From an uncultured Flavobacteriaceae bacterium (GTDB lineage Bacteria > Bacteroidota > Bacteroidia > Flavobacteriales > Flavobacteriaceae): 58,850 nt of DNA. The position numbers and the translations under genes are program-made. Under the pieces are notes generated by a model. It saw nothing but the letters and a program-made list of their open reading frames with translations, was not told the origin of the DNA and made no database searches. The DNA is taken from positions 1-58,850 of the forward strand of contig CALLIG010000176.1 of the NCBI GenBank assembly GCA_938009735.1. The letters are read 5' to 3'. Below, one piece after another: positions 47,774 to 51,095 of this stretch; positions within the stretch are counted from its first letter, which is position 1; the number at the start of each line of letters is the position of its first letter.

Positions 47774-48982
47774 GTGATAAAAATCGCCAAACGCGCTGCA
47801 GTTGCGAACGATTCTTACATTTTTCCAAAGAACACATTCATTGGTAAATTAAGCAGTTTGCTATTGCTTTTCTTTGTTTTTTATTCTGGATGTTTACTAA
47901 GCCAGGAAGAATCAGATACTCCAAAACTCAAAGTAGATTTAGGGGGTGCACTCCGTTTTAATTACAACAATTCAAGCTGGAAGCCCAACCAACAAAAAAA
48001 AGGTGGTGATTTCGGATTTGAAGTTTTTCGATTAGAAGCAGATGTTACCTATGGTGCGATGGAACTGCATATGGATCAACGCTTTTACTCAAGTGCCTTT
48101 GGTGGCGCTTTCTTAAAATACGGATGGTTTCAATACAACCTCAACAAAAAAAGTCATTTGAAGTTAGGATTGATTCCTGCCTATTTCGGGGCCCAACAAT
48201 TCAATTCACATAGCTGGTTCTTTCAGCTTCCCTTCTATTTAGGTTTTGAAGATGACCATGATATGGGTATTAGCTATGATTATGAAGATGATAGAATCAA
48301 ACTAGATATCGGGTTTTATAAAAATGCCGAAGCGCTAACATTGGGCGATAACAATCCAATTTCGCCTAATCGATATTCATATGATTTTTCAGGAAAAAAT
48401 AAAGAAGTAAATCAGTTCAACATACGTTTTAATTATAAATTAGGTAAAAAAGCAAAACATCTTGTTGGCACATCGTTACAATATGGTGGTATTTGGAATA
48501 TCGATACCGAAGACACCGGCAACCACGCTGCTTTAGGCCTTCACTATCAAATGGATTATAAGCGATGGAACGTTAAGACACAACTCATTACCTACAACAA
48601 TAAGCCCAATAACATAGCTGGCGAAAGTCGTGATGTTTTAGAAATGGCTGCTTATAATTTTCCCTACAATACAGCTGCAAAAGCAAATTTGTACTCCGTT
48701 GGGCTTGCTTATACTATTCCTGTCAACAAAGGTCTTTTTGAATCGATACAACTTTATAATGATTACACCTACATGGATAAGGCAGTAAGTAGCTGGGAAG
48801 ACACCCAAATGAATATCTTAGGTGCCCTAATTTCTATAAAACCGCTTTATATTTATGTTGATTATGCTAGCGGACGCAATCAACCCTGGCTAACACCAAA
48901 TTCGACGGACGCGCTTACCTCAGGTGATGGTACTGGAAAATGGAACCATCGTTTTAATATTAATTTCGGATTATATTTTTAA
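47774..48982 (+). CDS. Outer-membrane porin-like beta-barrel protein, GTG start
   Basis: This is a 402-residue protein that starts with GTG at 47774. The first 23 residues (MIKIAKRAAVANDSYIFPKN...) precede a signal peptide with SSLLLLFFVFYSGCLLSQEE, so a downstream start is possible. The mature part has alternating aromatic strands (FGFEVFRLEADVTYGAMELH, YGWFQYNLNKKSHLKLGLIPAYF) and ends in FNINFGLYF, a C-terminal Phe as in outer-membrane barrels. It most resembles DcaP-like or phosphate-selective porins. It overlaps no gene but ends 1 bp before the dCache-channel gene and is probably co-transcribed with it. Confidence 0.8.
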   Translation: MIKIAKRAAVANDSYIFPKNTFIGKLSSLLLLFFVFYSGCLLSQEESDTPKLKVDLGGALRFNYNNSSWKPNQQKKGGDFGFEVFRLEADVTYGAMELHMDQRFYSSAFGGAFLKYGWFQYNLNKKSHLKLGLIPAYFGAQQFNSHSWFFQLPFYLGFEDDHDMGISYDYEDDRIKLDIGFYKNAEALTLGDNNPISPNRYSYDFSGKNKEVNQFNIRFNYKLGKKAKHLVGTSLQYGGIWNIDTEDTGNHAALGLHYQMDYKRWNVKTQLITYNNKPNNIAGESRDVLEMAAYNFPYNTAAKANLYSVGLAYTIPVNKGLFESIQLYNDYTYMDKAVSSWEDTQMNILGALISIKPLYIYVDYASGRNQPWLTPNSTDALTSGDGTGKWNHRFNINFGLYF

Positions 48983-48983
48983 A

Positions 48984-51095
48984 ATGGTAAAGAAAATTCT
49001 TTACGGCATTGCAGTTATTTTATTCGTGGCCTTGTTATACCATGCATTTGAATTGTACTCCTTCACCCAAGAACGAAATAAAATAGTTCAAGAGAAAGGC
49101 TTGAACACCATGAATGACTTCAAAGAACAGGTCGACACTATTCTCTCAAGTATTGTTAACGAAGGTGAGAGACTGGCTGATGACTTCGGCTCCAACGAAT
49201 ACAGTAAAGAAGAAATTGAAAAGATCATTAAAGAATCTTCTTTGAAAATTCCTGCGCTACAAGGTATTACTGCTTGCTACGAACCCAATGCATTTTCCGA
49301 CGAACAAAGGCTTTATTGTCCCTATTATAATAAAGGAACCGCAGATTATCTTTTTGTTGGCGAAAGTTATGACTACTCTGTTAAAGGTGCTGATGGTACA
49401 GGCTGGTATACAGGGGTGCGCGATAATGGTGCAAAATGGGTAGAGCCCTACTACGCCAAAGGCGCGAAAGATTGGTACATCGATTATGGTATTCCTTTTC
49501 ACTATGCTGACGGACCTAAAAAGGGACAAGTAAGAGGCACCATCACCATGAGTTTCGTTACTAGTGGATTCAAAAACTTAATACTTTCGCTCAGCTTAGG
49601 AAAAACAGGATATGGAATAATTACATCGCAAGAAGGTACATATCTAAGTCATCCGGCCAACGATTATATTGGCACTACAAATCTAAAAACAATAAGTGAC
49701 GCAGAGGATAATCCTATTTTAAAAACCGCCTACGAAGAACTTTTAAAAGGAGCATCTGGAAATGTTGAATTTAAAGTCGATACTAATAACGATACCGAAT
49801 TATTTTTCTACGATAAGATTCCTTCAAATGGCTGGGGTATTGGTCTTGCCTTCTCTAAAAACGAATTATTAGGCAGTAAGGCTGCTTTGAATCATCGATA
49901 TATTAAGTTGACGCTATTTTTCTCAGCTTTTCTATTAATGATAATTGCAATCTATTTCAACAAAGATTACTTAGACCGCCGAGAGATTTGGCAATTAAGC
50001 ATACTTGCTACCATACTTCTTATTTTCAATATTCTACTAGTAGGCTACTTAGAGCATAACGGAAGCCGTAGAATAAGTTCTGATGAAAGTCCGCCAATAA
50101 CAGATGTTACCAGCTTAGGTAGTTTTGTTAATCAGCAACAGACAAGAAGAAAGGATTTAAAACTACCAGATAATATATCGATTCCTACAGGGATATTTAT
50201 TCAACGTATGGCTTTTGAAAATAGCTACAATCTTAATATTGGCGGTACAGTTTGGCAAAAATACCCAACTGATATTCTCGACAGTATTCAAGAAGGGTTT
50301 CGTTTTCCACAGACCTCTCCATTTGCTGAAGCCTCTTTTATTGAAGAAATGTACCGAAAGAAAGTATCAGGTATTGCCGGAAGCCCAGACTATTTGCTAA
50401 TTGGTTGGGATTTTCGTGTAACCCTGCAGCAATATCTGAATTATGAAAACTTCCCGTTTGACAAGCGGCATATTAATATGGAGATTATACCCGTCAGTAA
50501 CGAAGACAACCTAATCTTCACTCCAGATCTGTCAAGCTATGAATTCACGAATCCCACTAAAAAACCCGGACTAAATCCGAATGTAAAAGTCTCAGGGAAT
50601 AACATTGTAAAGAGTTACTACAACTACTCGGTTGAATCATATGACACAGATTTTGGTTTTGGATCAAAGACCTTATTTGAAGAGGTACCAGTTTTGCATT
50701 ATAATATTGAATTACGCAGGAAATTACTGAATACCTTCATCACCTATCTCATACCAATATTTGTGGTTTTGATTATGATGTATATTTTACTTATCGCTTG
50801 CTCGAAAACAGAAGAAAGGCAAGGTATAATTGAGGGAATGGCAGCATTTTTCTTTGTTCTAATTTTCTCGCACATCGATTTAAGAAAAGAGATTATTACC
50901 GCAGATTTGATCTATATGGAGTATTTCTATTTTGTCACTTATTTAATGATTATTCTGTGTACATGGAATTTGATCACCTATGCGAAAAGCAAGACACCAA
51001 TATTTGATTTCAATGAAAATCAAATATTTAAAGCGGCCTATTTTCCTTTCTTTTTCCTATGTATTCTGATGATTACTTTGGCGAAGTTCTATTAA
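48984..51095 (+). CDS. dCache sensor fused to a pentameric ligand-gated ion channel (putative)
   Basis: I chose the ATG at 48984 (703 residues); a longer frame from 48924 would overlap the porin gene. TM1 is at about 5-22. A periplasmic dCache domain (about 32-300) carries GWYTGVRDNGAKWVEPYY and KDWYIDYGIPF, typical of ligand-binding Cache modules. Two helices follow at about 309-325 and 337-356. Residues about 395-575 look like the beta-sandwich of a Cys-loop-type receptor: LNYENFPFDKRHINMEI holds the FPFD turn (490-493) of pro-loop channels. Four helices follow: M1 (579-604, with IP at 590-591), M2 (613-632, EGMAAFFFVLIFSHI), M3 (642-665) and M4 (681-700). This is the full pLGIC order. It sits 1 bp after a porin gene. 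The channel call is by eye and needs structural proof. Confidence 0.72.
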   Translation: MVKKILYGIAVILFVALLYHAFELYSFTQERNKIVQEKGLNTMNDFKEQVDTILSSIVNEGERLADDFGSNEYSKEEIEKIIKESSLKIPALQGITACYEPNAFSDEQRLYCPYYNKGTADYLFVGESYDYSVKGADGTGWYTGVRDNGAKWVEPYYAKGAKDWYIDYGIPFHYADGPKKGQVRGTITMSFVTSGFKNLILSLSLGKTGYGIITSQEGTYLSHPANDYIGTTNLKTISDAEDNPILKTAYEELLKGASGNVEFKVDTNNDTELFFYDKIPSNGWGIGLAFSKNELLGSKAALNHRYIKLTLFFSAFLLMIIAIYFNKDYLDRREIWQLSILATILLIFNILLVGYLEHNGSRRISSDESPPITDVTSLGSFVNQQQTRRKDLKLPDNISIPTGIFIQRMAFENSYNLNIGGTVWQKYPTDILDSIQEGFRFPQTSPFAEASFIEEMYRKKVSGIAGSPDYLLIGWDFRVTLQQYLNYENFPFDKRHINMEIIPVSNEDNLIFTPDLSSYEFTNPTKKPGLNPNVKVSGNNIVKSYYNYSVESYDTDFGFGSKTLFEEVPVLHYNIELRRKLLNTFITYLIPIFVVLIMMYILLIACSKTEERQGIIEGMAAFFFVLIFSHIDLRKEIITADLIYMEYFYFVTYLMIILCTWNLITYAKSKTPIFDFNENQIFKAAYFPFFFLCILMITLAKFY

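Follow-up and report, generated by a model that had tools for sequence, protein, structure and literature searches.

The window (the whole 58,850-nucleotide stretch of DNA that was analysed) comes from a marine bacterium, an uncultured Flavobacteriaceae, and its positions 48984-51095 (+) hold an open frame of 703 amino acids plus stop. Open reading frame, Pfam, AlphaFold and Foldseek results together define it as a gene for a Cache sensor fused to a pentameric ligand-gated ion channel (Cache-pLGIC). Starting instead from the GTG at 48924 would make it run into the upstream gene, and the alignments of close homologues begin with the MVKK at 48984. The gene is present as a single copy in the host draft genome (85% complete), which suggests a homomer. 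The upstream gene (47774-48982, +) encodes an OprP/OprO-like outer-membrane porin, as judged from its frame and predicted fold; it stops one base before the ATG of the channel gene, and the pair is read as an operon. Scans for promoters (10 sites, mean of 15.1 in shuffled sequences) and terminators (2 against 2.1) gave no excess.

The protein runs in the order TM1, double Cache sensor, TM2, TM3, pLGIC ectodomain and M1-M4, all coordinates here being on the + strand. TM1 (residues 3-28, 48990-49067) opens a long helix of residues 2-70 and is followed by the dCache domain (approximately residues 30-298, 49071-49877), which is predicted to be periplasmic and is supported by Pfam and PDB matches. 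TM2 (residues 300-325, 49881-49958) and TM3 (residues 332-359, 49977-50060) were placed, like TM1, by AlphaFold and hydropathy. A linker helix in the AlphaFold model (residues 375-391, 50106-50156) leads to the pLGIC-type ectodomain, a beta sandwich (residues 395-579, 50166-50720) recognised by AlphaFold, Foldseek and profile comparison. Within it lies the Pro-loop FPFD (residues 490-493, 50451-50462), found in the sequence and its alignment. The membrane domain consists of M1 with P591 (residues 581-605, 50724-50798; AlphaFold and alignment), the putative pore helix M2 (residues 612-636, 50817-50891; AlphaFold and GLIC alignment), M3 (residues 644-668, 50913-50987) and M4 (residues 680-702, 51021-51089), the last two from AlphaFold. 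The original prediction had described a Cys-loop-like ectodomain with the FPFD turn, four helices fitting M1-M4 and a proline in M1, and all of these are present: P491 is invariant in the 80-row alignment (A2) and P591 is at least 90% conserved. Its helix inventory was right for M1-M4 and missed TM2 and TM3.

The channel half has the pLGIC fold, a beta-sandwich ectodomain followed by four TM helices. The single-chain AlphaFold model built with alignment A2 has a mean pLDDT of 87.1 and a pTM of 0.75, and Foldseek returned 772 PDB matches at E <= 0.001. Among the best 50 of these, the second half matches the GLIC/GABA-A chimera 5osc (E 5.6e-12, TMt 0.74) and also GLIC, glycine receptor, GABA-A, sTeLIC and DeCLIC (9ev1) chains, so that the comparison with GLIC and DeCLIC proposed at the outset found both, with the single-chain model. 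Homology extends over ectodomain and TM domain at the profile level. A profile of the C-terminal half (48 rows) matched 76 PDB sequences at E up to 5; the best 60 of them are all GLIC or GLIC chimeras (best E 6e-4), and in the best rows the alignment to GLIC chains spans from before the Pro-loop to M4. Comparison by hhalign with six bacterial pLGIC-like sequences gave 98.8% (E 6.2e-17). These six were two relatives over the Pfam LBD cut-off (loci L120 and L122), one under it (L121) and three shorter paralogues that adjoin family members in L042, L052 and L075, the L042 one having a sub-threshold LBD match. Searches with the single protein were less telling: the Pfam scan gave no pLGIC match and left the C-terminal half blank, NCBIfam LGIC_1 matched weakly (residues 479-603, E 8e-4, 18.8 bits against a cut-off of 500), and phmmer against PDB sequences found no pLGIC. 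The Pfam LBD search of the host genome gave no match, and since the control genomes gave none either it is uninformative. Fold and homology establish that the protein is a member of the pLGIC superfamily, and the outcome that would have spoken against it, a different fold or an unrelated family for residues 395-703, did not occur.

The membrane topology has seven TM segments, two of them the extra helices between Cache and ectodomain. Counting as a hydropathy peak a mean of 1.4 or more over 19 residues, the full-length rows of the alignment have peaks at TM1 (59/60), TM2 and TM3 (60/60 each), M3 (57/60) and M4 (56/60), and nine of the 60 have an extra peak inside the Cache region. Relatives lacking the Cache domain start at TM3, and 14 of the 20 rows of this kind have a peak there; the trimmed reference begins downstream of it in some of the remaining rows. 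The arrangement is read as a receptor of the TM-Cache-TM type, joined near residue 330 to a channel anchored by TM3. Only about six residues lie between TM2 and TM3, and there is thus no cytoplasmic output domain.

Relatives of the gene occur in many phyla. Three of 14 genomes of the genus carry the channel, the window's included, and eight of 299 genomes in the family sample match, six with a full-length form, one with a Cache-less form (L009) and one with the Cache half only. The phylum sample has 51 matches in 395 genomes, of which 15 (window's included) span both halves and 32 cover the Cache half only. A scan of the species-genome collection with a nine-row alignment (A1) found 115 loci and 80 were kept. 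An unbroken relative over both halves (over 600 amino acids) occurs in 52 of these, including L022, which is cut by a contig end, and six that are genomes of loci already fetched; 17 have a Cache-less relative only. The other 11 (L025, L030, L032, L046, L060, L063, L068, L069, L085, L086 and L088) fall in neither class, being truncated, split, interrupted by unread bases or short of the length or coverage filter. The records name Flavobacteriaceae, Saprospiraceae, Nitrospirota, Acidobacteria, cyanobacteria, Anaerolineae, Gammaproteobacteria and Methanosarcina, where single placements may be wrong since most relatives are metagenome bins. Maribacter algarum has a channel that is 87% identical. 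Two Methanosarcina bins (L056 and L059) hold relatives that are 27-28% identical over nearly the whole length. Alignment A2 (60 full-length and 20 Cache-less rows) was drawn from 75 full-length and 22 Cache-less references. The window replaces its duplicate L001, and the omitted references share genomes with other rows (L011, L016, L029, L041, L051, L054), are similar to other rows or, for L022, cut by the contig end (L012, L015, L022, L035, L092, L094, L096, L099, L104) or contain unread bases (L060); of the Cache-less references, L076 and L103 were omitted.

Several family loci have features of their own. The Cache-pLGIC of L024, 51% identical, comes from a bin with the name Pirellulaceae, which would mean a phylum-crossing transfer or a binning error. 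Two full-length Cache-pLGIC genes lie close by in cyanobacterial contigs (L048, L049), and the frame is split over two ORFs in L046, L068 and L069. Three pLGIC-type genes, one Cache-fused, one of the shorter 353-367 amino acid type and one Cache-less, occur together in L042, L052 and L075, which suggests heteromers there. One cluster of similar proteins is encoded within four genes of pLGIC relatives in eight loci (L009, L042, L050, L071, L072, L075, L080, L083), mostly beside the Cache-less form; all three members scanned (L042, L050, L080) have a Pfam eCIS_core domain, and one also has a WHH nuclease domain. A periplasmic-binding-protein gene lies directly downstream of the Cache-pLGIC in L033 (Peripla_BP_6, E 3e-51), L034, L035, L036 and L038, and divergently upstream in L047. 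Directly downstream in L008 (379-1497, -) is an ionotropic-glutamate-receptor-like channel with SBP_bac_3 and Lig_chan domains, and a neighbour of this kind is also found in L043 and in L054, which is the genome of L008.

The porin upstream of the channel gene has an AlphaFold model of modest quality (pLDDT 72) that resembles OprP/OprO in Foldseek (2o4v, E 1.7e-11, TM-scores about 0.55). The window porin itself had no match in Pfam, NCBIfam or PDB-profile searches, and one relative lies just over the Pfam Porin_O_P cut-off (21.2 against 20.9 bits). The genus has the porin in exactly the same three of 14 genomes as the channel. The upstream side is visible in 17 distinct close loci (duplicates L011 and L016 and the 5'-truncated L025, L030, L032 and L088 were dropped), and the porin adjoins the channel in 11 of them: the window, L002-L004, L012, L013 and L019-L023. 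It was not found in the fetched flank of the other six (L014, L015, L017, L018, L024, L031), and no betaine gene was recognised beside those channel genes. A quick porin tree puts the 11 rows linked to a channel, which include Flavobacteriaceae and Saprospiraceae, on one side of a branch with an SH-aLRT of 99.

Porins of this type in genomes lacking the channel have a different neighbour. The porin profile matches 27 of 299 genomes in the family sample; removing the channel-bearing G000 and G227 leaves 25, and all places in these were fetched as 26 regions. The next gene encodes a BCCT transporter in 19 of the regions and a proV-type ABC importer with an OpuAC binding protein in one (L138). 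These 20, two of them fragmentary (L158, and L159 with pieces at 37-49%), include every region with a porin at least about 42% identical to the window's, and in the remaining six the porin is distant (27-35%) or broken and neither importer is present. Porin, BCCT and a universal stress protein follow one another in conserved order in the 19 Flavobacteriaceae regions (L136, L137, L139-L151, L154, L155, L158, L159). The BCCT identity was confirmed by Pfam or NCBIfam in 15 cases and by tblastn at 72-77% identity in four. NCBIfam scans of seven BCCTs place them above the general BCCT cut-off and below the glycine-betaine and choline equivalog cut-offs (573-609 against 650 for betaine). In L138 the ATPase clears the betaine/proline/choline family cut-off and the binding protein that of Pfam OpuAC; the scores stay below the choline equivalog cut-offs. 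The 14 genomes of the genus, some of them incomplete, yielded no BCCT (controls positive in four of 14). At L152 (923-4999, -) a distant porin relative (34%) precedes a large sensor that carries SBP_bac_3, PAS and SpoIIE domains and a sub-threshold dCache_1 match. From this gene order we infer that the porin may pass betaine/choline-type solutes and that the channel stands where an importer stands elsewhere. Because the channel occupies the importer's slot after the porin, a quaternary-ammonium osmolyte is the best guess for its ligand; the substrate may differ, since the BCCTs miss the betaine and choline cut-offs and the window porin is only 43-47% identical to the importer-linked porins.

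The sensor half matches Pfam dCache_1 above the cut-off (E 6e-14, residues 132-287), other Cache models match it too, and the top Foldseek matches, within the best 50 of 772, are Cache domains of Methanosarcina mazei histidine kinases (3lib, E 5.8e-13, TMt 0.75). The dCache ligand-binding module that had been proposed to be joined to the channel is thus borne out. Its ligand class is less clear. The accessible part of PMC10104139 groups 3LIB with amine sensors and describes a closing Asp that the amino-acid and amine dCache motifs share; in two dCache domains tested there, a single mismatch to the motif was enough to abolish detectable binding. The window protein lacks the dCache_1AA motif as given there: the Arg two residues before the conserved Trp is T139 and the Asp is S190, positions cross-checked in profile alignments. 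The motif speaks against the amino-acid sensor class, and the amino acids first put forward as candidate Cache ligands are unsupported. For the amine class (dCache_1AM), the motif Asp (D235 of PctD) is likewise replaced by S190, an Asp being present in six of 60 full-length rows. The missing Asp also speaks against a classical amine pocket in the Cache domain, and hence against the betaine/choline guess, unless the solute binds to the ectodomain or in another pocket.

The preferred reading, with a probability of roughly 0.55 for the whole, is a porin-fed, Cache-fused, quaternary-ammonium-sensing channel of the pLGIC superfamily; its fold, topology, homology and gene pairing are computed, and we infer the pentamer, conduction, selectivity, coupling route and ligand. 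The protein would form a ligand-gated ion channel in the inner membrane, probably a homopentamer, in which a complete membrane chemoreceptor unit (TM1-dCache-TM2) is fused ahead of the TM3-anchored channel. A solute may enter the periplasm via the OprP-like porin of the operon and bind to the dCache domain, the pLGIC ectodomain or both. From the TM2-TM3 hairpin the signal would then travel through the 375-391 helix and the Pro-loop to M1-M4, opening a probably cation-preferring pore. Since close porin relatives adjoin betaine/choline-type importers, the most likely solute is a quaternary-ammonium osmolyte such as glycine betaine, choline or carnitine. It is a tentative extension of this reading that the protein could be an osmolyte-sensing relative of the acetylcholine receptor, turning betaine or choline outside the cell into an ion current instead of import, via a membrane hairpin and with dCache units placed around a five-fold channel. 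Elsewhere dCache units are often dimeric.

Alternatively, a solute, protons or Ca2+ may gate the channel by acting on its own ectodomain, and the Cache unit would do no more than anchor it, help it assemble or tune it mildly. Cache-less relatives have the same TM3, linker and channel and are the sole form in those 17 kept loci, as this would predict. Against six relatives the gene is under purifying selection (pN 0.07-0.17, pS 0.76-0.87, near saturation); pN is lowest in M1-M4 in all six comparisons, and the dCache domain shows more variation than M1-M4 in every one of them and is the least constrained domain in two (L004, L017). However, the pN of the Cache domain is still far under pS, W152 is kept in 59 of 60 full-length rows, and 52 of the 80 kept loci retain the Cache half together with the channel across very long distances, making gating by the ectodomain with a passive Cache unit rather unlikely. 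Whole-length homologues in distant organisms and the purifying selection place the fusion beyond chance.

With GLIC as the ruler in the profile alignment, and the register inferred from it, M2 has Q613 at 2', E617 at 6', A620 at 9', F624 at 13', I627 at 16', H630 at 19' and R634 at 23'. In this register the EG once placed just before M2 (E617-G618) sits inside the helix, at 6'-7'. In pLGICs the 9' position is usually a Leu or Ile gate residue, and the Ala of the window protein, unlike it, counts against the preferred reading. Ala, Ser, Thr or Gly occupies the inferred 9' position in 58/60 full-length and 20/20 Cache-less rows; 13' is Phe in 51/60 and 20/20, 23' is Arg in 59/60 and 19/20, and 6' is Glu in 14/60 full-length rows. 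The small 9' and Phe 13', with Glu 6' within the clade of the window protein, appear to be an unusual M2 pattern. Going by charge alone, Glu at 6' and E610/E611 at -1'/0' would probably make the pore cation-preferring. A pLGIC-fold receptor that no longer conducts, its pentamer relaying a conformational signal or holding a partner, would explain a very hydrophobic M2 (AAFFFVLIF) without the usual 9' gate residue and with Phe at 13'. That is quite unlikely, since M1-M4 are the most conserved part, small residues at 6'-10' can leave the pore room, and the AlphaFold model has no cytoplasmic domain to receive such a signal.

A role as a chemotaxis receptor, with ion flux steering motility, was suggested for prokaryotic pLGICs in 2004 (PMC549065, accessible part), and Cache domains are common in chemoreceptors. 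For the Cache-pLGIC branch it is disfavoured and very improbable: MCP signalling and CheW domains were not found in the host draft (85% complete; control genomes positive in seven of 14 in each search), Pfam finds no MCP signalling domain in the channel protein itself, and no MCP domain was found in four relatives. That residues 395-703 belong to an unrelated membrane-protein family and merely look like a pLGIC, which the empty Pfam result might suggest, is hardly tenable given the two-domain structural match to many pLGICs and the profile matches colinear through the Pro-loop and M1-M3.

GLIC shares with the window protein the ectodomain and M1-M4 fold, the Pro-loop and the M1 proline. It differs at 9' (Ile) and 6' (Ser), which are Ala and Glu here, and the matched GLIC chains have about 310-320 amino acids against 703. 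To our knowledge GLIC has no Cache domain and no extra TM helices. DeCLIC, like the window protein, is a pLGIC with an added N-terminal module; its N-terminal domains are, as far as we know, not Cache, with no TM helices before the channel, and in contrast TM2 and TM3 part sensor from channel in the window protein. The Cache half finds its best matches, in structure and in sequence, in the M. mazei histidine-kinase domains 3LIB and 3LI9. They differ in output, which is a kinase there and a channel here, and in the shared motif Asp of the amino-acid and amine classes, which is Ser here. The porin is alike to OprP/OprO in predicted fold, and the genes next to its relatives suggest betaine/choline rather than phosphate.

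Also among the closest known systems are the ART-LGICs of Tasneem et al. (PMC549065), who in 2004 already reported, in the accessible part of the paper, Cache/MCP-N-fused members from Methanosarcina, Cytophaga and Microbulbifer, with the extra domains between signal peptide and LBD. Judged by their description, the window protein likewise has a Cache domain N-terminal to an LBD and four TM helices. The original prediction took the absence of Cache from GLIC and ELIC as the novelty; this does not make the protein a new kind, because the Cache-pLGIC fusion was published then. No other paper treating Cache and prokaryotic pLGICs together was found among those listed in the literature search, none had both 'Cache domain' and 'pentameric ligand-gated ion channel' as terms, a term search of Jaiteh et al. 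2016 (PMC4795631) did not find the word 'cache', and nothing was found joining BCCT, porin, Flavobacteri, glycine betaine and outer membrane. No structure or ligand of a Cache-fused pLGIC was found either, the PDB sequence matches listed being either Cache domains on their own or chains of the GLIC type. The pair of helices TM2 and TM3 that parts Cache from LBD and the porin pairing, both features of the window, go unmentioned in the accessible text of PMC549065. What is new here is the TM-hairpin topology with its Cache-less sister form, the pattern in M2 and the link between porin and importer. Prokaryotic pLGICs serve as structural models of the nerve receptors of animals. The TM helices between sensor and channel pose the question of how a chemoreceptor module acts on a five-fold pore, and the porin pairing gives this branch a specific, testable ligand hypothesis in the chemical class of acetylcholine.
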